From positions 34,827 to 98,826 of the forward strand of contig JAHBZV010000006.1 in the NCBI GenBank assembly GCA_019635275.1: a stretch of DNA of 64,000 nucleotides, given 5' to 3'. How positions within the stretch are numbered: the stretch's first letter is position 1; every line of letters begins with the position of its first letter. Positions 46,756-57,944 of this stretch are shown here, in pieces. The DNA comes from Burkholderiaceae bacterium (lineage in GTDB: Bacteria > Pseudomonadota > Gammaproteobacteria > Burkholderiales > Burkholderiaceae_E). Position numbers and translations under genes: made by a program. The notes below the pieces were generated by a model. The model did no database searches. It had not been told where the DNA came from and worked only from the letters and a program-made list of their open reading frames with translations.

Positions 46756-46820
46756 TGGACTGCTGACAGGCGAACCGCGCCGCCGGACTGATCGCGCGGG
46801 CAATGTTGAAAGGAATCGAA

Positions 46821-48944
46821 GTGTTCGAAATCGCAAAGAAAACCTTCCAGTGGGGGGGCAACACCGTCACCATCGAGACCGGCGAGATCGCGCGCCAGGC
46901 GTCGGGGTCGGTCGTCGTGAACATGGACGACACCGTGGTGCTGGCCACCGTGGTCGCCGCGCGCAGCGCGAAGCCCGGCCAGGACTTCTTCCCGCTCACC
47001 GTCGACTACGTCGAGAAGTTCTATGCCGCCGGGCGCATTCCCGGCGGTTTCTTCAAGCGCGAAGGCCGTCCGACCGAGCGCGAGATCCTGATCTGCCGGC
47101 TGATCGACCGACCGATCCGCCCGCTGTTCCCCGAGGGCTTCTACAACGAGGTCCAGGTCATCGTTCAGGTGATGTCCAGCAATCCGGAAGTCGACAGCGA
47201 CATCCCGGCGATGCTGGGCGCCTCGGCGGCGCTGGCGCTGTCGGGCATCCCGTTCGACGGCCCGATCGGCGCGGCGCGCGTCGGCTACATCGACGGCCAG
47301 TACGTGCTGAACCCCAGCGCCACCCAGATGGACAGCTCGAAGCTCGACCTGGTCGTGGCCGGCACCGACGCCGCCGTGCTGATGGTCGAGTCGGAAGCGC
47401 ACGAGCTGCCCGAGGACGTGATGCTCGGCGCCGTGGTCTACGGTCACGAGCAGATGCAGACCGCGATCAAGGCGATCGACGAGCTCGTCGAGATGGCGGG
47501 CAAGCCCGCGTGGGACTGGACCCCGACGCCGAAGAACGAGGGGCTGATCGCCCGCGTCAACGAGCTGGCCGAGGCCGACATGCGGGCGGCCTACGCGCTG
47601 CGCAACAAGCAGCAGCGCATGGCGCGCATCGGCGAGATCGAAAAGGCGACCATCGCGAAGATCGTCGAGGACGCGGCCACGCACGGCCATCCGCCGCCCG
47701 ACGCCAACGATCTGGGCAACATGCTGTTCGACCTGCAGTACCGCATCGTGCGCAGCCAGATCCTGGCCGGCGAGGCGCGCATCGACGGCCGCGACACGCG
47801 CACCGTGAGGCCGATCGCGATCCGCACCAGCGTGATGCCGCGCGCGCACGGCTCGGCGCTGTTCACGCGCGGCGAGACGCAGGCGATCGTCGTCGCCACG
47901 CTGGGCACTTCGCGCGACGAGCAGATCATCGACGCGATCACCGGCGAGTACCGCGAGCGCTTCATGTTCAACTACAACATGCCGCCGTTCGCCACCGGTG
48001 AAACCGGCCGCTTCGGCTCGCCGAAGCGCCGCGAAGTGGGTCACGGCAACCTCGCCAAGCGGGCGATCCGCCCGCTGCTGCCGGGCGCCGAGGAGTTCGC
48101 GTACTCGCTGCGCGTCGTCTCCGAGATCACCGAGTCGAACGGCTCGTCGTCGATGGCCTCGGTCTGCGGCGGATGCCTGGCGCTGATGGACGCCGGCGTG
48201 CCGGTGAAGGCGCACGTCGCGGGCGTCGCGATGGGGCTCATCAAGGAAGGCGGCCGCTTCGCGGTGCTCACCGACATCCTGGGCGACGAGGACCACCTCG
48301 GCGACATGGACTTCAAGGTGGCCGGCACGACCGCCGGCATCACCGCGCTGCAGATGGACATCAAGATCCAGGGCATCACGAAGGAGATCATGCAGGTCGC
48401 GCTCGCACAGGCGCGCGAGGGCCGCATGCACATCCTCGGGCTGATGCAGCAGGCGATCGGCGGGGCCCGCGAGGAGCTCTCCGACTTCGCGCCGCGCATG
48501 TACACGATGAAGATCAACCCCGAGCGCATCCGCGACGTCATCGGCAAGGGCGGCGCAACCATCCGCCAGATCACCGAGACCACCGGCACGCAGATCGACA
48601 TCCAGGACGACGGTTCGATCACGATCGCTGCGGTCGACGGCGCCGCCGCCAAGCGCGCGCAGAAGATCATCGAGGACCTGACCGCCGAGGTCGAGATCGG
48701 ACGGATCTACGAGGGCACCGTCCTGAAGATCCTCGACTTCGGCGCGATCGTGCAGGTGATGCCGGGCCGCGACGGGCTGCTGCACGTCTCGCAGATCGCC
48801 AACGAGCGCGTCAACCAGGTCTCCGACTACGTGAAGGAAGGCCAGGTCGTGCGCGTCAAGGTGATCGAGGCCGACGACAAGGGGCGCCTGCGCCTGTCGA
48901 TGAAGGCCGTGACGCCCGAAGAGGCCGCCCAGTCGGCGAGCTGA
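46821..48944 (+). CDS. pnp: Polyribonucleotide nucleotidyltransferase (PNPase)
   Basis: A phosphorolytic 3'-5' exoribonuclease of the degradosome. Two RNase PH domains (residues about 10-220 and 310-540) carry [11 protein letters not shown] and [31 protein letters not shown]-type motifs (core [14 protein letters not shown]), followed by KH ([15 protein letters not shown]) and S1 ([12 protein letters not shown]...[11 protein letters not shown]) domains. I choose GTG 46821 ([13 protein letters not shown]), because AAGGA lies seven bases upstream and the length (707 residues) fits; ATG 46803 would add six residues. Confidence 0.95.
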
Positions 48945-49028: not shown

Positions 49029-50684
49029 TCAGGCCGGCTTCCAGCGCGACGATCGATCGTCCAGCGTCGCGCGTCGCTCGTCGCGCAGCTTGAGCAGGTG
49101 CGCGGTGAGCGAGCGCCTGGCGACCGGGTGCAGCAGCGGGTCGACGTCGTCGTAGGCGAGCACCACCAGCTCGTCGAGCGTGCCGCCGCCCAGGCGGTCG
49201 AGCGCGTCGACGACCTTCGCTTCGCGCGCCATGCGGTGCGCGATCAGCCGCGCGATCTCGGTTTTCGCGCGTGCGATCACGTGACCGTGCGCGGGCAGGA
49301 TGAACTCGAACGGCTCCGCGGCCAGCCTCTGCAGCGATGCGACGTAGGCGCGCATGTCGCCGTCCGGCGGGTCGACGACCGTCGTCGAACCGTTGAGGAT
49401 GTGGTCGCCGGAAAACAGCAGCCCGTCCTCCTCGAGCAGCAGGCAGACGTGGTGCTCGGCATGGCCGGGCGTGTGCAGCGCCCGGAGCGTCGAGTCGCCG
49501 ACTTTCAGGCGTGCACCGTCCTCGAGGGTCTCGTCGGGGCGGAAGGTCCAGGCCGGATTGAAGTGCGGTCCGCTCGGCCGGCCGACGATGCGCGCGCCGG
49601 TGAGCCGCTGCAGGGGCGCCGCGCCGGGTGCGTGATCTGGGTGTGCGTGCGTGCAGACGATCGTCTTCAGGCCGTCGCCGACGAAAGCGGCGATCCGGTC
49701 GATGTGCTCGGCGTCGTCCGGGCCCGGATCGACGACCAGCCAGTCGCCCGGCGTGCCGACGATGTACGTATTGGTGCCGGGGCCGGTCATCCGGCCCGGG
49801 TTCGGCGCAGTCAGTCGATGGACGTGCCGCAGCAGCGGCACGACGCGCTCGGACTGCCAGTCCAGCGAGTGATGGAGGCCTCCATCCGGAGTGACCAGCT
49901 CGAGTTCGCCGAACGGCAGTTCCTCCTCGCTGAAGCGCTCGATGCGCCCGCGAAGCCAGCCCCCGCGAGGGCAGGACACGCTGACGCGCGATTGGCCGCT
50001 CGCGTGCGCCAGCACCTCGTCGACGCTGCCGAAGCGCGTGAGCCGGCGAAGCGTGCGAATCGTCGGGAAGATGATGTTGAAGCGGCCTTCCTCGTGGCGC
50101 GCCAGGCCTTCGGCCGGCGTCACCCAGGTCGGCTCGAATTGCTCGCCTTCGTCGGCAACCGGCTGTTGATGCGCAGGCATGCGCGCGACGAAGAATCGCA
50201 CGTCGAATCGCTTCGGGAGGTCGCGATCGGTGATCCAGTGGCTGAACCAGTGCACCTCGTCCAGCGCCAGGCGCAACTCGTGCGCGGCAACCTGGGCGAA
50301 CAGGTCCGCGTTCCGGCTGCGGTCCAGGCTCCGCGCGATCTGCGCGAGCGCGGTGCCATCGGCACGGCCGCGCGCGAGAAGGATGCCCAGCTCCTCGAAG
50401 GCCTCGCGCACGGCTGCGGTCGCGAAAGACAGGATCTCGTCGTCCTGGTCGGGGCGGGCGAGCGCGAGTTCGCGGGCCAGCGGCGACGCGTCGCGCGCGT
50501 CCAGGGTGCCGCCGGGGAAGACGTAGGCGCCGGGGGCAAAGCTCGCGCTGTTCGAGCGCCGCGTCATCAGTACCTGCGGCCCGTCGCCGGAATCGCGCAG
50601 CAGCAGGATCGTTGCCGCGGGCCGCGCGGCCACGGGTTCCTGCCAGGGGTGGAGGCGCTTCTCGGGTCGGACGGTTGCCGTCAT
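49029..50684 (-). CDS. Nudix hydrolase fused to a metallo-beta-lactamase-fold hydrolase
   Basis: A 551-residue two-domain protein. The N-terminal half (residues about 20-230) is Nudix: GGTLDARD, then after an insertion REAFEELGILLA, the split Nudix box of RDxxxR/NUDT19-like CoA or nucleotide hydrolases. The C-terminal half (about 290-540) is an MBL domain: TNTYIVGTPGDWLVVDPGPDD, then the metal motif THAHPDHAPG, TPGHAEHHVCLLLEEDGLLFSGDH. The MBL half resembles LACTB2/glyoxalase II-type proteins. It follows two beta-oxidation genes in the same direction (22 bases), so acyl-CoA or CoA turnover is a reasonable inference. Confidence 0.85.
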   Translation of the reverse strand: MTATVRPEKRLHPWQEPVAARPAATILLLRDSGDGPQVLMTRRSNSASFAPGAYVFPGGTLDARDASPLARELALARPDQDDEILSFATAAVREAFEELGILLARGRADGTALAQIARSLDRSRNADLFAQVAAHELRLALDEVHWFSHWITDRDLPKRFDVRFFVARMPAHQQPVADEGEQFEPTWVTPAEGLARHEEGRFNIIFPTIRTLRRLTRFGSVDEVLAHASGQSRVSVSCPRGGWLRGRIERFSEEELPFGELELVTPDGGLHHSLDWQSERVVPLLRHVHRLTAPNPGRMTGPGTNTYIVGTPGDWLVVDPGPDDAEHIDRIAAFVGDGLKTIVCTHAHPDHAPGAAPLQRLTGARIVGRPSGPHFNPAWTFRPDETLEDGARLKVGDSTLRALHTPGHAEHHVCLLLEEDGLLFSGDHILNGSTTVVDPPDGDMRAYVASLQRLAAEPFEFILPAHGHVIARAKTEIARLIAHRMAREAKVVDALDRLGGGTLDELVVLAYDDVDPLLHPVARRSLTAHLLKLRDERRATLDDRSSRWKPA

Positions 50685-50706: not shown

Positions 50707-51513
50707 TCAGCTAGGCACGCCGTGGCGTCCTGCGCCGGCGACGAAGCGCGCCGCGCCCGCGGTGGCCTCGTCGTCCTCGAGCGTGCGCATGCCCAGCGCG
50801 AATTCGTTGGCGAGCGCCTCGTCGATCGTCAGGCCGAATTGCTCGTAGGCCGAGCGCCGGTCATTGCGCAGGCATGCCTGCGGCAGGGCGGCCAGCTCGT
50901 GTGCGAGCGCGATCGCGGCGGCGCGAGACGTGCCGTCGGCCACCACGCGGTTGGCCAGGCCGATCCGCAGCGCCTCGTTCGCGGAGACCGCGCGACCCGT
51001 CAGGATCAGGTCGAGCGCGTGCGACAGGCCGATCAGGCGCGGCAGGCGCACCGTGCCGCCGTCGATCATAGGCACGCCGAAGCGCCTGCAGAACACGCCC
51101 AGCGTGGCCGACTCCTCGACGATCCTCAGGTCGCACCACAAGGCGAGCTCGAGGCCGCCGGCTACCGCATATCCGGAGATCGCAGCGATGACGGGCTTCG
51201 AGAGCAGCATGCGGCTGGGCCCCATCGGACCGTCGCCATCCGGCTCGAGCCGATTGCGGCGCGCCCCGCCCGCCAGCGCCTTCAGGTCTGCCCCGGCGCA
51301 GAAGTGGCCATGGGCGCCATGGAACACGGCGACGCTGCGCGACGGGTCGGCGTCGAACTGCGCGAACGCGGCCGCCAGCGCTTCGGCGGTGGGGCGATCG
51401 ACGGCGTTGCGCGCCTCGGGGCGCGACAGCGTCACGATGCTCACCGGACCGTCGTGCTCGACCGTGACCGGGCGACGGTCGTCGTCCCGAGAGAGGGTTC
51501 CGGACGTGGTCAT
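50707..51513 (-). CDS. Enoyl-CoA hydratase/isomerase family protein
   Basis: A 268-residue crotonase-fold protein. The oxyanion-hole strands are HFCAGADLKALAGG at about residues 68-81 and SGYAVAGGLELALWCDLRI at about 110-128. FGVPMIDGGTVRLPRLIG replaces the usual glutamate-containing FGxPExxLG loop: where a hydratase has Glu, this protein has Met-Ile-Asp. This pattern is common in isomerase or side-chain enzymes, so a simple hydratase role is uncertain. It lies between the FadJ-like gene (14 bases) and the Nudix-MBL gene (22 bases). Confidence 0.85.
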   Translation of the reverse strand: MTTSGTLSRDDDRRPVTVEHDGPVSIVTLSRPEARNAVDRPTAEALAAAFAQFDADPSRSVAVFHGAHGHFCAGADLKALAGGARRNRLEPDGDGPMGPSRMLLSKPVIAAISGYAVAGGLELALWCDLRIVEESATLGVFCRRFGVPMIDGGTVRLPRLIGLSHALDLILTGRAVSANEALRIGLANRVVADGTSRAAAIALAHELAALPQACLRNDRRSAYEQFGLTIDEALANEFALGMRTLEDDEATAGAARFVAGAGRHGVPS

Positions 51514-51527
51514 GGAAAGCCTCCTGG

Positions 51528-53858
51528 CTAAAGGGGCGTGCCTCGCTCGGCGTGCTCGAGCAACGACGTCGGCGGCGCGAAGCGCTCGCCGTAACGCTGC
51601 GCGAGTTCCCGGGCGCGAGCCACGAAGGCGCGCACGCCGACGTGGTTGACGAACTGGACGGTGCCACCGGTCCAGGCTGGAAATCCCCAGCCGAAGATCG
51701 CGCCGATGTTCGCGTCGCGCGTCGACTCCAGCACGCCCTCCTCGATGCAGCGCACCGTCTCGATCGCCTGCGCGTAGAGCATCCGGTCCTTCACGTCCTC
51801 GAACGGGATCGCGCGCCCGCCGCGCTCGAACACCTTGAGGCCGGACCACAGCGACTTCTCGCCGTCTTGCGGGTAATCGTAGAAGCCGCCGCCGTAGGCC
51901 CGGCCCATGCGCTTGAAGCCGTGAGCCATCTTCTCGAGCACATACACGGCCGACTCCGGCACCCTGCGGCTCTTGACCTTGTGCGCGTGCCGGTGGCCGT
52001 GCACGGCGTCGCTGGCCTTCGCGTGGCGGTGGTCATGATCGTGTCCGTGCGCGTGCCCTTGCGCGTGCTGGTGCCCGTGCTCGTGCTCGTGCTCGTGTGC
52101 ATGCGCATGCCCATGGACATGTTCATGTCCGTGCGTATGTCCGTGGCCATGCTCATGCTCGTGCTGCTCACGCTCCAGGTCGGCCAGTTCCTGGTGAAGC
52201 ACGTCGTCGGCGAGCTTCAGCGAGACTTCGTCGAGCACCGCCAGCGGCCCGACGGGCATCCCGATCTGCCATCCGGCGTTCTCGACCATCGCCGCGGGAA
52301 CGCCTTCGCCCACCAGCGCCATCCCCTCGTTGACGAAGGTGCCGAAGACCCGGCTCGTGTAGAAGCCACGCGAATCGTTGACGACGATGGGCGTCTTGCC
52401 GATCTGCAATACGAAGTCGTATGCCTTCGCCAGCGTATCGGCCGACGTCTTCCTGCCCTTGATGATCTCCACCAGCTGCATGCGGTCCACCGGGGAGAAG
52501 AAGTGCAGTCCGATGAATTGCTCGGGGCGCGCCGAGGCCTGGGCCAACCCGGTGATCGGCAGCGTCGACGTGTTCGACGCGACGATCGTATCGCCGCCCA
52601 CGACCGCTTCGGCTTCCTGCGTGACCCGCGCCTTCAGTTCGCGATTCTCGAACACCGCCTCGATCACCAGGTCGCAATTCGACAGGAGGGCGGCGTCGGC
52701 GGTCGGCGTGATCGCCGCCAGGACCTTGTCGGCGTCGGCGGCCGACATGCGCCCCTTCTCGACGCGCTTGGCGAGCAACCGAGCCGAGTACGCCTTGCCC
52801 TGCTCGGCCCTGGCGAGATCGACGTCCTTCAGCACGCATGGAACGCCCCGGCTGGCGCACGCCCACGCGATGCCCGCGCCCATCATCCCTGCGCCCAGGA
52901 TGCCGACGCGGGTGGCGCGCCAGCGCGGCGGATCGGCAGGCCGGCTCTTGCCGGCCTTCACCTCGTTGAGCTGGAAGAACAGGGTGCCGATCATGTTCCT
53001 GGCCACCTGCCCGGTGACGAGCCGCGTCATGTAGCGCGACTCGATACGCATCGCGGTGTCGAAGTCGACCTGCGCGCCTTCCACGGCAGCCGCGAGAATC
53101 GCCTCGGGCGCGGGATAGTTCCCGCGTGTCTGTTGCTGGAGGATCGCGGGCGCAATCGGCAGCATTCCCGCGACGGCCGGACTCGCTGGCGTGCCGCCCG
53201 GAATGCGGTGTTTCGGGTCGTCCCAGGGCTGCTGCGGGTGGGGGTGCGCGTCGATCCAGGCCCGGGCGCGCGTGAGCAGGTCGTCCCGATCGCGCGCCAA
53301 TCCGTCGATGAGGCTCATCTCGAGCGCCTTCGCAGGCGCGACGCGGCGTCCCTCGCTCAGGTAGGGGAGTGCATGCTGCAGTCCGATCAGGCGCACGGTC
53401 TTCACGACGCCGCCGGCGCCGGGCAGCAACCCCAGCGTCACCTCTGGGAAGCCGATCTCGATCGACGGGTCGTCGATGCACAGCCTTGCGTGGCAGGACA
53501 GCGCGAGCTCGAGTCCGCCGCCAAGCGCACTGCCGTTGATGGCGGCGACGACCGGCCTGCCGAGCTTCTCGATCCGTCGCAGGCACGCCTTCATGGCTTC
53601 CAGCTCGTGGAAGAACGTCGCGGCATCCTCGGGTCGAACCGCTATCAGGGCGCGCAGGTCGCCGCCCGCGAAGAAGGTTCGCTTGGCCGAGGTGAAGATG
53701 ACGCCACGGATCTGCTCCCGTTCCCCCTCCAACCGAACGACGATCGCGCGAAGGTCGGCCTGGAACGCGGCATTCATCGTATTGACCGGCTGGTCGGGGG
53801 CATCGAGAAGCAGTGTCACGACGCCATGGGCGTCCTTCTCGTAGCGGATGCTGGACAT
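51528..53858 (-). CDS. FadJ-like multifunctional beta-oxidation protein with a histidine-rich insert
   Basis: A 776-residue fusion. The enoyl-CoA hydratase domain (residues 1-190) has NGSALGGGLELALSCHARLC and GFPEVTLGLLPGAGG with both catalytic Glu. The 3-hydroxyacyl-CoA dehydrogenase NAD site GILGAGMMGAGIAWACASRG is at about 318-337, and FSPVDRMQLVEIIKG follows. Residues about 565-627 are an inserted run with about 27 His (alternating EH, GH, AH), located in a loop of the first C-terminal 3HCDH domain, between KLADDVLHQELADLERE and KSRRVPESAVYVLEKM. The flanking domain text resumes normally. First gene of a three-gene minus-strand operon. Confidence 0.93.
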   Translation of the reverse strand: MSSIRYEKDAHGVVTLLLDAPDQPVNTMNAAFQADLRAIVVRLEGEREQIRGVIFTSAKRTFFAGGDLRALIAVRPEDAATFFHELEAMKACLRRIEKLGRPVVAAINGSALGGGLELALSCHARLCIDDPSIEIGFPEVTLGLLPGAGGVVKTVRLIGLQHALPYLSEGRRVAPAKALEMSLIDGLARDRDDLLTRARAWIDAHPHPQQPWDDPKHRIPGGTPASPAVAGMLPIAPAILQQQTRGNYPAPEAILAAAVEGAQVDFDTAMRIESRYMTRLVTGQVARNMIGTLFFQLNEVKAGKSRPADPPRWRATRVGILGAGMMGAGIAWACASRGVPCVLKDVDLARAEQGKAYSARLLAKRVEKGRMSAADADKVLAAITPTADAALLSNCDLVIEAVFENRELKARVTQEAEAVVGGDTIVASNTSTLPITGLAQASARPEQFIGLHFFSPVDRMQLVEIIKGRKTSADTLAKAYDFVLQIGKTPIVVNDSRGFYTSRVFGTFVNEGMALVGEGVPAAMVENAGWQIGMPVGPLAVLDEVSLKLADDVLHQELADLEREQHEHEHGHGHTHGHEHVHGHAHAHEHEHEHGHQHAQGHAHGHDHDHRHAKASDAVHGHRHAHKVKSRRVPESAVYVLEKMAHGFKRMGRAYGGGFYDYPQDGEKSLWSGLKVFERGGRAIPFEDVKDRMLYAQAIETVRCIEEGVLESTRDANIGAIFGWGFPAWTGGTVQFVNHVGVRAFVARARELAQRYGERFAPPTSLLEHAERGTPL
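51979..52166 (-). repeat. Histidine-rich low-complexity coding segment inside the FadJ-like gene
   Basis: About 188 bases of alternating CAC/CAT and GAG/GGC/GCC codons, giving HEHEHGHGHTHGHEHVHG-type text. The coding strand uses both CAC and CAT in mixed order, so it is not a pure DNA repeat and has probably been kept by selection on the protein. The reading frame is open through it. Confidence 0.9.
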
Positions 53859-53979
53859 GCGAACTCCGGGCGGGGCTGGAATGATCGGAAGCGTCCAATC
53901 ATAAACCGTCGCAGGCAGCGTCCGTCCGCCGCCGGAGGGTGGCCGCCCGACGCGGGGTAGCCGATGCGTTCAGGAGGCC

Positions 53980-56970
53980 TCAGATCGGCAGCGTGAGCCG
54001 CTGCGAGGCGTCGCGAGCGCCGATCGCGCTGCCCAGGATGATGTCGGCGGTCTCCTGGTCGCGGATCAGCGTCACCGCGTTGGGAACCGCGAGCAGTCGC
54101 TCTCGATCGAGCGGTCGGCAGACTCCATAGCCCTGCGCATAGTCCACCTGGAGCTCGATGAGCGACTTGACGATGCCGGCGTTCTCGGCCCATTCGGCCA
54201 CGCAGCCCATCCCGAGCTCGTGTGCCAGGTCGACCACTGCGCGCGTGATCGCGAAATTCGCCCGATTCAGGTTGACGTCGCGGATGAAGTTACCGTCGAT
54301 CTTGACCAGGTCGCCGGGAAGCTCCTTCAGGTAACTGAAGGAGGTGTAACCCGCGCCGAAGTCGTCCAGCGCGACCATCGCGCCAAACGACTTGACCCGA
54401 TCGACGAACCGCCGAGTCGTGTTCAGATCGTAAAGGGCGACGCTCTCCGTGATCTCGAAGCAGATCTTCCTCGTCGACTCCGGATGCGAGCGGATCAGCG
54501 CGATCGTGTCCTGAAGGAACTTCTCGTCGTTCAGCGAGGCGCCGCTCAGGTTCAGCGTGCAGAAGTCGACGTTGTCGCGGTGGGCAGGTTGGGAGTCGAG
54601 CCATTCGAGCGTGCTGCGGAGCACCCAACGGTCGATCTGCGTCATCAATCCGTTGCGTTCAGCAGCCGGAATGAAGCGGGCGGGCGGCAGCACCTGCCCG
54701 CTGTTGTCGCGCATCCGGATCAACACCTCGTAGCAGAGGCTCGACTCGGGGTTGCGCAAGGAGACGATCGGCTGCAATTGCGTGAAGAAATTCTCGATCG
54801 GCAGGCGTTCCTTCATTCCTGCCACGAGCTTGATCTCGTCGAGGTAGTTCAGCAACTCCGTGCTGCTCGAGTCGTAGGAGATGACGGTCGCGCCCCCGGA
54901 GGCTTTGGCCTCGGAGCACGCGCGGTCACTGGCGGTCAGGGCGTCGGCAGGGCGCATGTTGTCGAGCACGCGGATCAGGCCGATGCTCGCCGTTACGTTG
55001 AACGCCTTGTCCTGGTATTGATACGCGCGGTCGCTCAGGTCGACGCGAAGCTTCTCGCAGAGCGTCTTCGCCGACTCGAGCGAGGGGCCGTCGATGATGA
55101 CCACGAACTCGTCGCCGCCGACCCGTGCGGCGACGTGCGGCGGCCTGATCACTTCGCGCATTCGCGTCGCCATCTGGCGCAGGATCTGGTCTCCGGCAGC
55201 GTGCCCGAACAGGTCGTTGACCAGCTTGAAGCGGTCGAGGTCGACGTAAGCCAGGCACACCGGGCGGTTGACTGCCGATCCGATGGCCTTCTGCAGATGG
55301 ATCTCGAAGCCGCGACGGTTCAGCAGGCCGGTCAGGGAGTCGTGGTCGACGAGGAACTTGAGTTGCCCTTCGGCTTCCTTGCGTGCGGTGATCTCCTCGA
55401 TCCACCCCTCGTACCGCTCGACCTTCCGAACCGCACGCACATGGAACCAGCGCCGTTTGCCGTCCGGGCGTTCGATCGCGAGTTCTGTATCCATCATCCG
55501 GTCGCTCGAGGTCAGCTCCTTGACGGCCTTCAGTGCCTCGAGATTCGTCAGTTCGACCCAGTTCAGTCCGATCTTCGAGTTGCGGCGCCCGTTGCCCGGG
55601 AACATCTCGGCAAAGGTCGGGTTGTGTTCGATGAGAGTCCCGTCGTGCTTCATCGAGAAGATGCCGACGGGCATCGCGTTGTAGTTCTCGCGGAACCTTT
55701 GCAGGGCGGTGACGGCACTGTGCTGGGCGGAGATTCGGGCTTCTCTCTCGTGTTGAAGTTTCGCAGCGAGGGCGATTCCCGAGAGGACGGCAGCGGATAT
55801 CGCAGCGACTTGGCTATTCATCACCTTGGTCAGAGAGCCTGGGTAGCCAAGAGCGTTGACTATTTCTCCGAACATCCCTAGCCCGGTTACAAACCAGGAG
55901 AGCGCGTACCAGATCGCAACTGGCGAGGCGTCCTTTCGAAGGATCTGGGCGAGGAAAAGGAAGATGGTGACCGTCGTGACAACACCCAGCACCCATATGA
56001 GGACAATGCTTGCGTGCGCGGGCGCCAGAAGAGTCAGACCGGCCGCTAGGAGATACGTGACGTAGAGGCAGGGAAGCAAGAAGGAGCTGCGGGCCCCCTG
56101 AATTTGCTGCCCGAACAACTCCTGAAAGAGAGCGACAGTCAATACCAAGTGAAGTAGGAGGGTGAGATTCTTTACGACTGGAACGAACCGTGCGTCGAGC
56201 ACCCAGCCAATCCACTTGAGGTCCCAGCCGAAGTTGAATCCGGCGATGCGAAGGCTGGTGACTAGGAGCGCTGCGAGCAGAAAGAACGTCTTGTCGCGGT
56301 TCAACAGCGAAACGATGGCGCCGAAGACCGCCAGACCAAGCATGCCCCCGAAGAGCAGTCCCCCGAGTCTGTCGGAGGCAATCAGGTGTGGCGCAAGGGA
56401 AGAGCCTGGCTGCAAGACAACTTGTGGCTTGACGACTGATTCTCCACGCAGTCGTCCAACAATTTGCACTCGGCCGTTCGTCGCATGAAGGCCTTCGAAG
56501 GCAATTCCGCTGCGTGTCTCTGTAACGGTTAGCTTGGCGATTGCGAGAGTGTTGGCACTATCCGCAGGGATGCCGACTTGCCAGAACTCCGGATTCTTGC
56601 CGCGGAGCTGCCGCAATTCGATGGAAAGGTCGGACAGGGTCGGATCAACTTCAGCAGTGAGAGAAATCCAGAAGGACCCTTCCGGCGTCAGGCCCCGACT
56701 GGGCGCTATGCCGTCCGCCTCGGAGAAGAAACGATTGGTTGCCTCCTCAACTGGAATTCCGGGATCGGGGTCAGGGAGGTAGCTCAGCGATACAGTGCCG
56801 TCAGGTTCATCGGTGATGCTCTGGGAGACTAGCAGCCCGGCTGACACGAATCCCAGAATGATCGCTATGGAGGCCGCAAACGTCTTCATCAGATGAAGAA
56901 GTTGCGACGCGCCTCCAACTGCATGCGAGAACGAATGTCCTCGCAGGCCTAGCGCCCGAGCGATCGACAT
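53980..56970 (-). CDS. Membrane 7TMR-DISM-type sensor with PAS, GGDEF and EAL domains
   Basis: A 996-residue cyclic-di-GMP signalling protein. A signal/anchor helix (residues about 25-48) is followed by a periplasmic domain to about residue 190, then about seven hydrophobic helices (roughly 195-390), a PAS domain (about 430-540, NAMPVGIFSMKHDGTLIEHNPTFAEMF), a GGDEF domain with intact GGDEF at about residue 616, and an EAL domain with YEVLIR at about 746 and DDFGAGYTSFSYLKELPGDLVKID. Both catalytic motifs appear competent, EAL as EVL. ATG 56970 (MSIARALG) has AAGGGAG upstream; a TTG at 57000 is also possible. The N-terminal third is lower in GC than the rest. Confidence 0.88.
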   Translation of the reverse strand: MSIARALGLRGHSFSHAVGGASQLLHLMKTFAASIAIILGFVSAGLLVSQSITDEPDGTVSLSYLPDPDPGIPVEEATNRFFSEADGIAPSRGLTPEGSFWISLTAEVDPTLSDLSIELRQLRGKNPEFWQVGIPADSANTLAIAKLTVTETRSGIAFEGLHATNGRVQIVGRLRGESVVKPQVVLQPGSSLAPHLIASDRLGGLLFGGMLGLAVFGAIVSLLNRDKTFFLLAALLVTSLRIAGFNFGWDLKWIGWVLDARFVPVVKNLTLLLHLVLTVALFQELFGQQIQGARSSFLLPCLYVTYLLAAGLTLLAPAHASIVLIWVLGVVTTVTIFLFLAQILRKDASPVAIWYALSWFVTGLGMFGEIVNALGYPGSLTKVMNSQVAAISAAVLSGIALAAKLQHEREARISAQHSAVTALQRFRENYNAMPVGIFSMKHDGTLIEHNPTFAEMFPGNGRRNSKIGLNWVELTNLEALKAVKELTSSDRMMDTELAIERPDGKRRWFHVRAVRKVERYEGWIEEITARKEAEGQLKFLVDHDSLTGLLNRRGFEIHLQKAIGSAVNRPVCLAYVDLDRFKLVNDLFGHAAGDQILRQMATRMREVIRPPHVAARVGGDEFVVIIDGPSLESAKTLCEKLRVDLSDRAYQYQDKAFNVTASIGLIRVLDNMRPADALTASDRACSEAKASGGATVISYDSSSTELLNYLDEIKLVAGMKERLPIENFFTQLQPIVSLRNPESSLCYEVLIRMRDNSGQVLPPARFIPAAERNGLMTQIDRWVLRSTLEWLDSQPAHRDNVDFCTLNLSGASLNDEKFLQDTIALIRSHPESTRKICFEITESVALYDLNTTRRFVDRVKSFGAMVALDDFGAGYTSFSYLKELPGDLVKIDGNFIRDVNLNRANFAITRAVVDLAHELGMGCVAEWAENAGIVKSLIELQVDYAQGYGVCRPLDRERLLAVPNAVTLIRDQETADIILGSAIGARDASQRLTLPI

Positions 56971-57066
56971 GACCTTTTGTACTCCCTTGCCTTCTGGCAA
57001 GGATTGGATGAACCAGCCTGCTGCTGGGTCGAGCGCCGACGAAAGGCAGAATGAGCGGCGTCAATG

Positions 57067-57140: not shown

Positions 57141-57944
57141 CTAGATCACGGGCACATCAAACGTCACGCCGAACGCGCGATTGGCCGATGTGCCTTTTCG
57201 CCGCGTCGAGCGGCTATTTGCCCAAGCACCGCTCACGGAGTCGAAGATTCGAATGTCTTCGTGGATCTGATTGCACATGAAGTCGTAAAGCGGGTGATCC
57301 GTCTCACGCCATCGCTGTTCAGCCGTTCGTACATTGAACGCGAGGAGTCGCGCGGGGATGCCCATTGATGAGGGAAGTGTCACCATGCCGCCATTGGGAA
57401 AGACTTCCTCGAACTGCAGGTTGATGTAATCGCGATCACGGGGAGGGATGCCAGTAACCATGATCCACTCAATCTGAGTCGCGAGGCAGTACCTATACAA
57501 AGCCTTGAATAGCGCAAGTTTCACTTGAACGCCGAGTCTCCCGCCGACCACGCCCAGCCGCGAGACGTGCGCGATGCTTTTGCCTTGGTACTTCTGTGGC
57601 AACAGCAATTCCCGCTCGAATTCTGTCTGGCCGTGGATGTTCGAGTGGATTCGCAACGTGCCAACTGGTGCGAGGGTTTCCTTTGATTCGGCGAGAAGGA
57701 TGATGCTATCGCGATCACCGTCCTCCGACTCGGCACTTCGGAGCGTGCGAGCCAGCGAAGGAAGCCGCTTCGCATAGGCGGTTGTGCGCACGTTGACCGC
57801 CCGGGCCAGCTGGTCATTGGTCCGAACAAGCCGGATCGTGAAAGGGAGTAACACGGGGCGGGGGCGCTGATTAACGGGCCGAATCGAGATCTCGCTGAAC
57901 GATTCCGACGCGTCTTGGACGTCTGTAATGGGTGTTCTTCGCAT
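57141..57944 (-). CDS. FeeM/LuxI-like acyltransferase (N-acyl amino acid synthase fold)
   Basis: A 267-residue protein of the GNAT-like FeeM/PEP-CTERM-associated acyltransferase group. The recognisable run is IRLVRTNDQLARAVNVRTTAYAKRLP at about residues 37-62, then VGTLRIHSN, ESKETLAPVG upstream, a VSRLGVVGG...VKLALFKALYRYC stretch, DYINLQFEEVFP, and RWRETDHPLYDFM near the C-terminus. The family joins a fatty acyl group (from acyl-ACP) to an amino acid or similar acceptor, and is related in fold to LuxI autoinducer synthases. Product unknown. The gene lies in low-GC DNA between two signalling proteins and is divergent from the hybrid kinase. Confidence 0.78.
   Translation of the reverse strand: MRRTPITDVQDASESFSEISIRPVNQRPRPVLLPFTIRLVRTNDQLARAVNVRTTAYAKRLPSLARTLRSAESEDGDRDSIILLAESKETLAPVGTLRIHSNIHGQTEFERELLLPQKYQGKSIAHVSRLGVVGGRLGVQVKLALFKALYRYCLATQIEWIMVTGIPPRDRDYINLQFEEVFPNGGMVTLPSSMGIPARLLAFNVRTAEQRWRETDHPLYDFMCNQIHEDIRIFDSVSGAWANSRSTRRKGTSANRAFGVTFDVPVI

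Follow-up and report, generated by a model that had tools for sequence, protein, structure and literature searches.

The His-rich proteins Hpn and Hpn-2 of Helicobacter are among the known systems closest to the protein reported here. They are lineage-restricted and bind nickel, and Hpn, in the account given in PMC4671568, sequesters this metal. A survey of low-complexity regions in prokaryotes reports that such regions of cobalt- and nickel-binding proteins are enriched in His and Asp (PMC6821194). Closer to fatty acid oxidation, an enoyl-CoA hydratase homologue of Legionella, Lpg1596, is described as binding Ni-NTA, a property attributed there to surface His residues (PMC12211046). Our literature search, conducted mostly outside subscription journals, found no recognized description of His-rich FadB-type proteins or their remnants.

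In this study, we analyzed a stretch of 64,000 nucleotides (the window) from the genome of a Burkholderiaceae bacterium, and compared one of its genes across 74 genomes, the window genome included, of a single Burkholderiales family (coded f1). The gene and its unusual feature are as follows.

51528..53858, minus strand: gene for a FadB/FadJ-type multifunctional enzyme of 776 amino acids with a His-rich loop (open reading frame, Pfam, NCBIfam and structure match)
51981..52163, minus strand: His-rich tract, residues 566-626, with 27 His in 61 residues, in frame

The initial annotation had placed a His-rich insert at 51979-52166, which is real and was located correctly to about a codon. Outside the tract, only 12 of 715 residues (1.7%) are His, and the binomial tail probability for the tract is about 1e-31. 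An open reading frame on the plus strand (51552..53960) overlaps the same bases and was taken for a mirror frame of a high-GC gene. A general fondness for His tracts in the window genome was rejected, since a search of this genome with the tract returned only its own gene and one frame at E=0.97 that was taken for spurious.

The protein has the Pfam domain order ECH, 3HCDH_N and 3HCDH, and its parts map to the minus strand as follows.

53253..53828, minus strand: enoyl-CoA hydratase domain, residues 11-202, with Glu117 and Glu139 present (Pfam, alignment)
52374..52907, minus strand: NAD-binding 3HCDH_N domain, residues 318-495, with Gly322/Gly324/Gly327, His452 and Glu464 present (Pfam, alignment)
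52176..52367, minus strand: first part of the 3HCDH C-terminal domain, residues 498-561, a unit retained in shortened relatives (Pfam)
52152..52220, minus strand: helix entering the tract, residues 547-569, with Asp551 and His555 (model, alignment)
51918..51956, minus strand: helix after the tract, residues 635-647, containing YVLEKMAHG (model, alignment)
51531..51959, minus strand: rest of the C-terminal region, residues 634-776 (structure prediction)

Since the catalytic residues E117, E139, G322/G324/G327, H452 and E464 are invariant in a 41-row alignment, the window gene product is probably an active enzyme. All seven are also present, by alignment, in each of the 27 distinct full-length f1 proteins, and Glu139 and His452 align, by our own count of the offset, with Glu141 and His462, the residues mutated in Mycobacterium tuberculosis structures. 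The protein had been called FadJ-like, and FadJ is indeed its best NCBIfam model, but the score of 527 bits is under the cut-off of 869 and the closest solved relative is M. tuberculosis FadB. Because this cut-off is not reached, we place the protein in the FadB/FadJ family in the wide sense, outside the FadB and FadJ equivalogs.

The Pfam match to the first 3HCDH C-terminal domain ends at residue 561 (profile position 66 of 97), just before the tract. In an AlphaFold2 model built with 41 sequences (mean pLDDT 88.4, pTM 0.84), residues 571-624 form the only listed segment with pLDDT below 50 and are flanked by the two helices listed above. The break in the domain match and the model agree with the placement first proposed, in a loop of the first 3-hydroxyacyl-CoA dehydrogenase C-terminal domain, and the tract is predicted to be a disordered loop. 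Folded alone, residues 496-776 of the window protein gave a pLDDT of 83.6 and a pTM of 0.78, and the best fold matches of this C-terminal part were to the M. tuberculosis trifunctional enzyme.

A full-length gene was identified in 28 of the 74 f1 genomes (E <= 1e-180). In 25 of these 28 genes a His-rich tract occupies the same loop, with 11-63 His where it is whole; two tracts are incomplete, in G005 (broken frame, 18 His) and in G084 (contig end). Three full-length genes, all from genus g16, have 45-49 amino acids at the loop with a single His and intact catalytic residues, and a fourth g16 genome has 13 His there; on this comparison the tract is dispensable in g16. The initial annotation had proposed that homologues be aligned to see whether the insert is conserved in position and His content. 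Its position is conserved in f1, but length and composition vary, trimmed tracts having 21-201 residues and 10-81 His, i.e., an approximately tenfold spread in length, which speaks in part against the proposal by the criterion that the initial annotation set.

Outside f1, the linker is 25-33 amino acids long with 0-3 His in 65 full-length homologues from Acinetobacter, Undibacterium, Herbaspirillum, Chitinimonas and others, with near-identical sequences among them; these were drawn from the best 80 of 304 loci confirmed by a contig scan, and from two genome matches. In a sample of 300 genomes of the order, 33 genomes outside f1 matched a shortened-type query (E <= 1e-6), 31 of them with frames of at least 685 amino acids and two at contig ends, one of which (G130) was read and has no tract. 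In a class sample of 369 genomes, 50 outside f1 matched (two of them also in the order sample), with 49 frames of at least 638 amino acids and one near a contig end. As far as these samples extend, the tract-bearing gene is restricted to f1.

The loci that share the linker come from records titled, for example, Burkholderiaceae bacterium and Lautropia sp. SCN 69-89. One further record, titled Actinomycetes bacterium (L030, JAKOVA010000283.1), encodes a protein 94% identical to that of the window; its contig was probably mislabelled or binned wrongly. Two frames (L043 / L209) make up the FadB-type gene of isolate FR_11 (G005), a split that we took for a sequencing error in the assembly because each part is well conserved.

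A query with the C-terminal region minus the tract matched 70 of 74 f1 genomes, and all 47 of good quality (E <= 1e-10), part of these matches being distant ordinary FadJ-type genes. Sorting of the 74 genomes gave 28 with a full-length gene, 34 with a shortened one, one with a partial one of unclear type (G083) and 11 with no match or only distant ordinary genes. Among the 34 shortened genes, 29 are uncut by contig ends. The other five (G016, G018, G024, G073, G081) are cut and were counted as shortened because no full-length gene was found in their genomes; a second piece is visible for G018 only.

Neither the GxGxxG motif of the NAD domain nor the catalytic-His motif occurs in any of the 29 uncut shortened proteins. 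Both hydratase Glu motifs are missing from 28 of these proteins and present in L206. As a control, the GxGxxG, catalytic-His and two hydratase Glu motifs hit 26, 26, 24 and 20 of 27 full-length proteins, which makes the two hydratase motifs the less sensitive ones; L013, missed by the first two motifs, has the residues by alignment. Pfam searches with ten shortened proteins found the hydratase domain kept and the NAD domain gone in L206, a hydratase remnant in L191, an NAD-domain remnant in L205 and, below the cut-off, in L176, and the C-terminal domain alone in L175, L179, L184, L189, L192 and L197.

All 29 uncut shortened proteins carry a His tract. In 27 of them it lies in the linker (26-82 His), and in the two from g11 it is N-terminal, with 26-29 His upstream and only 2 His in the linker. 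These two g11 genes (L185 1475-2117, L192 1459-2077) are also shorter at the C-terminal end. In the helix entering the tract, Asp551 and His555 are shared by all 29 shortened proteins and by all 24 full-length f1 proteins with a tract that were aligned; no homologue among the 65 from outside f1 has them, 25 being unaligned at these places. In the helix after the tract, Tyr639 and Gly647 are retained by the 53 tract-bearing f1 proteins aligned, and the three distinct g16 proteins without a tract have other residues there. We considered a metal site formed by the two helices (Asp551/His555 with Glu642/His646) and dropped it, since His646 is the commonest residue at its place outside f1 too (41 of 65).

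The cores of shortened genes have dN/dS of 0.08-0.41 (28 pairs covering 20 of 29 genes, with dS saturated in some), and full-length genes have 0.05-0.15 (15 pairs). By this measure, the shortened genes tested are under purifying selection. The tract seems useful without the enzyme, because the shortened proteins keep it, lose the active-site motifs and, where tested, appear constrained. Our main finding, as judged from gene comparison, is that in relatives the tract outlives the enzyme.

Comparison of 44 loci, 41 of them from f1, indicated that most share one genomic setting, which in the window has the following neighbors.

46803..48944, plus strand: pnp (polynucleotide phosphorylase), the syntenic anchor, found in 33 of 44 loci
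49029..50684, minus strand: NUDIX, metallo-beta-lactamase-fold (MBL) and winged-helix fusion protein; its cluster was found in 32 of 44 loci
50707..51513, minus strand: enoyl-CoA hydratase/crotonase (PRK08259 type), downstream (domain searches)
53980..57000, minus strand: 7TMR-DISM/GGDEF/EAL protein, upstream; its cluster was found in 26 of 44 loci
57141-57944, minus strand: gene upstream of GGDEF/EAL for a protein of 267 amino acids that matched no Pfam family; its cluster was found in 14 of 44 loci

The pnp gene lies within approximately 5 kb in 33 of 41 f1 loci, 22 of them with a shortened gene and 11 with a full-length one; the three loci from outside f1 do not have it there. Among the eight f1 loci where it was not seen, five (L184, L186, L195, L205, L207) run into a contig end shortly past the MBL gene, the fetched flank of L041 ends at a similar place, and L183 and L190 show 3.5-4.4 kb past the MBL gene with no pnp. 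Seven g2 loci (L196-L198, L200, L202-L204) keep pnp, with no MBL/NUDIX or GGDEF/EAL cluster member found. The two g12 genomes can be read beside pnp, and this stretch yielded no FadB-type gene or remnant. No metal-homeostasis gene is among the conserved neighbors that we identified. Spread on plasmids was rejected, since a search with one shortened protein matched four plasmid records and none of them covered 80% of that protein.

How often the gene was shortened depends on the tree consulted. In a tree of the C-terminal part, all 29 shortened proteins fall on one side of one branch (96/91), and trees in which the shortened genes of g1 or g3 group with full-length genes of the same genus are rejected by an AU test (p 0.006 and 0.011). 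In a pnp tree, shortened genomes stand beside full-length genera; four changes are needed, and firm branches force at least two. The conflict could reflect long branches, gene exchange or shared change after loss of catalysis, and because of it the independent retentions may come down to one. Since the trees disagree, and long branches make both unsure, we claim retention without the enzyme and give no count of events; multiple independent truncations are not claimed.

A tract-only query in f1 returned CDF transporters, CobW/HypB-type GTPases, UreE and GTP cyclohydrolase I (Pfam), along with FadB remnants and some other or doubtful frames. Against ten tracts from CDF, HypB-type, UreE and GTP cyclohydrolase proteins of f1, the FadB-type tracts have 42% versus 43.5% His and 16.5-17.8% versus 18.5% Asp plus Glu, a likeness that is partly built in because similarity to this tract is how the ten were found. 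Of 53 FadB-type tracts, 21 contain Cys, and every one of these 21 has C-x(0-2)-H at least once. A CGH motif was seen in FadB-type tracts (L012, L016, L020 as GPGCGH, L026, L035) and in UreE tails (L125, L127, L139), and one GTP cyclohydrolase I (L138, from G087) has a His-rich N-terminal extension. The suggestion in the initial annotation that the tract binds a metal is thus matched in composition by HypB-, UreE- and CDF-type tracts; binding itself is what we infer. We find the metal hypothesis plausible and on firmer ground than when it was first proposed.

Nickel-enzyme maturation is unlikely in the window organism because, in its genome (86.8% complete), matches to urease and NiFe hydrogenase are under the cut-off (21.2 versus 23 bits and 21.6 versus 25.8 bits, respectively). 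The twelve g1 genomes with a full-length gene have no urease over the cut-off, and their NiFe-hydrogenase matches are absent or below it save in G005 and G006, where they cover profile positions 2-67 only and were taken for complex I. Urease is over the cut-off in 41 of 74 f1 genomes. Given these results for the twelve g1 genomes, maturation of nickel enzymes was set aside as the main purpose. By elimination, zinc is perhaps the candidate metal.

We consider it probable that the tract is a selected, flexible, metal-binding arm of a FadB-type enzyme that, in many relatives, was kept as a metal buffer after loss of the enzyme. Several roles other than metal binding would also suit a tract that is predicted to be disordered, of low complexity and charged, namely pH buffering, condensate formation, or a protein-interaction tail on a dimeric scaffold; the C-terminal domain is a dimerization domain in this enzyme class. 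However, the Cys residues placed close before His in 21 of 53 tracts and the metal-protein-like composition fit a metal better, and we regard these other roles as unlikely.

The tract may also have grown as a GNN-CAY hexanucleotide repeat, by slippage in a tolerant loop, and have been kept as harmless. As first noted, both His codons are used (CAC 19 times and CAT 9 times in the 92-residue window linker), and the tract DNA today is no clean repeat. The accompanying statement that it is not a pure DNA repeat holds in that sense, but Tandem Repeats Finder detects diverged 6/12/18/30-base arrays with 75-82% matches, so hexamer expansion is a likely origin of the tract. The tenfold length variation, the in-frame indels by which close relatives differ in the linker, and the loss from three g16 genes would all suit neutral growth.

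The linker codons argue otherwise. In 12 non-independent pairs, aligned at codon level by nucleotide match and with the tract flanks included, His columns changed to another residue in 43 of 365 cases versus 211 of 692 for non-His columns, while His/His columns differed between CAC and CAT in 83 of 322. Second-position heterozygosity in the tract is 0.24 in the His phase versus 0.67 in alternate codons, with the phase chosen by His. Thus, His changes less than its neighbors though its synonymous site varies. In addition, all 29 uncut shortened proteins keep a tract with the active sites gone, and in g11 the tract is N-terminal while the linker is poor in His. In 21 of 24 tracts, third-position GC falls below that of the gene body, which could reflect looser constraint or codon choice, or avoidance of exact repeats. 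The repeat signal and the in-frame indels suggest that the tract grew by repeat expansion with selection keeping His. Purely neutral expansion is disfavored already by retention without the enzyme, and we think it quite improbable. The initial view that the tract is maintained is well supported by its conserved position in f1, by His being held while neighbors change and by its survival after enzyme loss.

A third possibility, close to the proposal in the initial annotation of a link between fatty acid oxidation and metal status, is that the arm senses a metal and tunes the hydratase and dehydrogenase. The intact catalytic residues of the window protein and the location of the arm within the dehydrogenase C-terminal domain would accommodate such regulation. 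This link is weakened by the arm being retained where dehydrogenase motifs are lost, as in all 29 uncut shortened proteins, and lost from three g16 genes with intact catalytic residues, and we rate it as very doubtful. Service as a metallochaperone for the adjacent MBL-fold/NUDIX protein is similarly improbable: metallo-beta-lactamase-fold enzymes usually need zinc or another metal, and the cluster is found in 32 of 44 loci, but the His-rich gene persists in seven g2 and two g11 loci where no member of this cluster was found.

Under the metal-arm reading, the arm would have entered the first dehydrogenase C-terminal domain in a loop that joins two helices. In the window organism, where the catalytic residues are still present, the protein would probably be enzyme and metal buffer together. 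Elsewhere in f1, the NAD domain and usually the hydratase domain are gone from the gene, with the C-terminal scaffold and a His arm kept, and the shortened proteins may store or buffer a metal in the cytoplasm, zinc being the likeliest and cobalt, copper or nickel also possible. Against this reading stand the g16 losses (three of four full-length genes), the lack of such a gene beside pnp in the two g12 genomes, the length spread, the lack of metal-homeostasis genes among the identified neighbors, the built-in part of the compositional likeness, the single-branch tree and the lower third-position GC.

In its wider form, the proposal is that a beta-oxidation enzyme at a single locus is being turned, across f1, into a metal-buffering protein of a new kind: the arm came first, the catalytic domains were then discarded in many genera, and the scaffold and arm were kept and often enlarged, the window protein being an intermediate that is still an enzyme. 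To this history we give an even chance. It would lay out stages of enzyme repurposing within one family, i.e., enzyme with arm, hydratase with arm and no NAD domain, decayed domains with arm, and scaffold with arm. A further prediction is a family of His-rich proteins not yet described, part of which may carry the annotation 3-hydroxyacyl-CoA dehydrogenase despite a missing active site. If metal binding is true, this family adds a metal store or buffer that is not derived from a metal protein.

Among known systems, FadB of M. tuberculosis, the alpha chain of the trifunctional enzyme (4b3h, 7o1m), is the best sequence match (residues 3-551 and 634-767) and has catalytic residues that correspond to those of the window protein; it differs in having 18 residues between the aligned parts, too few for such a tract. 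Lpg1596, as described in PMC12211046, differs in having 2.38% His and no His runs, and was found there as a purification contaminant. The HypB-type GTPases, UreE and CDF transporters of f1 share with the FadB-type proteins a like composition and alternating X-His tracts found by the same query; these are metal-handling families, and none is a fatty acid enzyme. With Hpn-like storage proteins the shared trait is a His-rich tract that selection appears to retain. Hpn and Hpn-2 are portrayed in PMC4671568 as small paralogous proteins tied to urease and hydrogenase, whereas here the tract, itself of low complexity, is borne by a descendant of FadB, either a beta-oxidation enzyme or its remnant.
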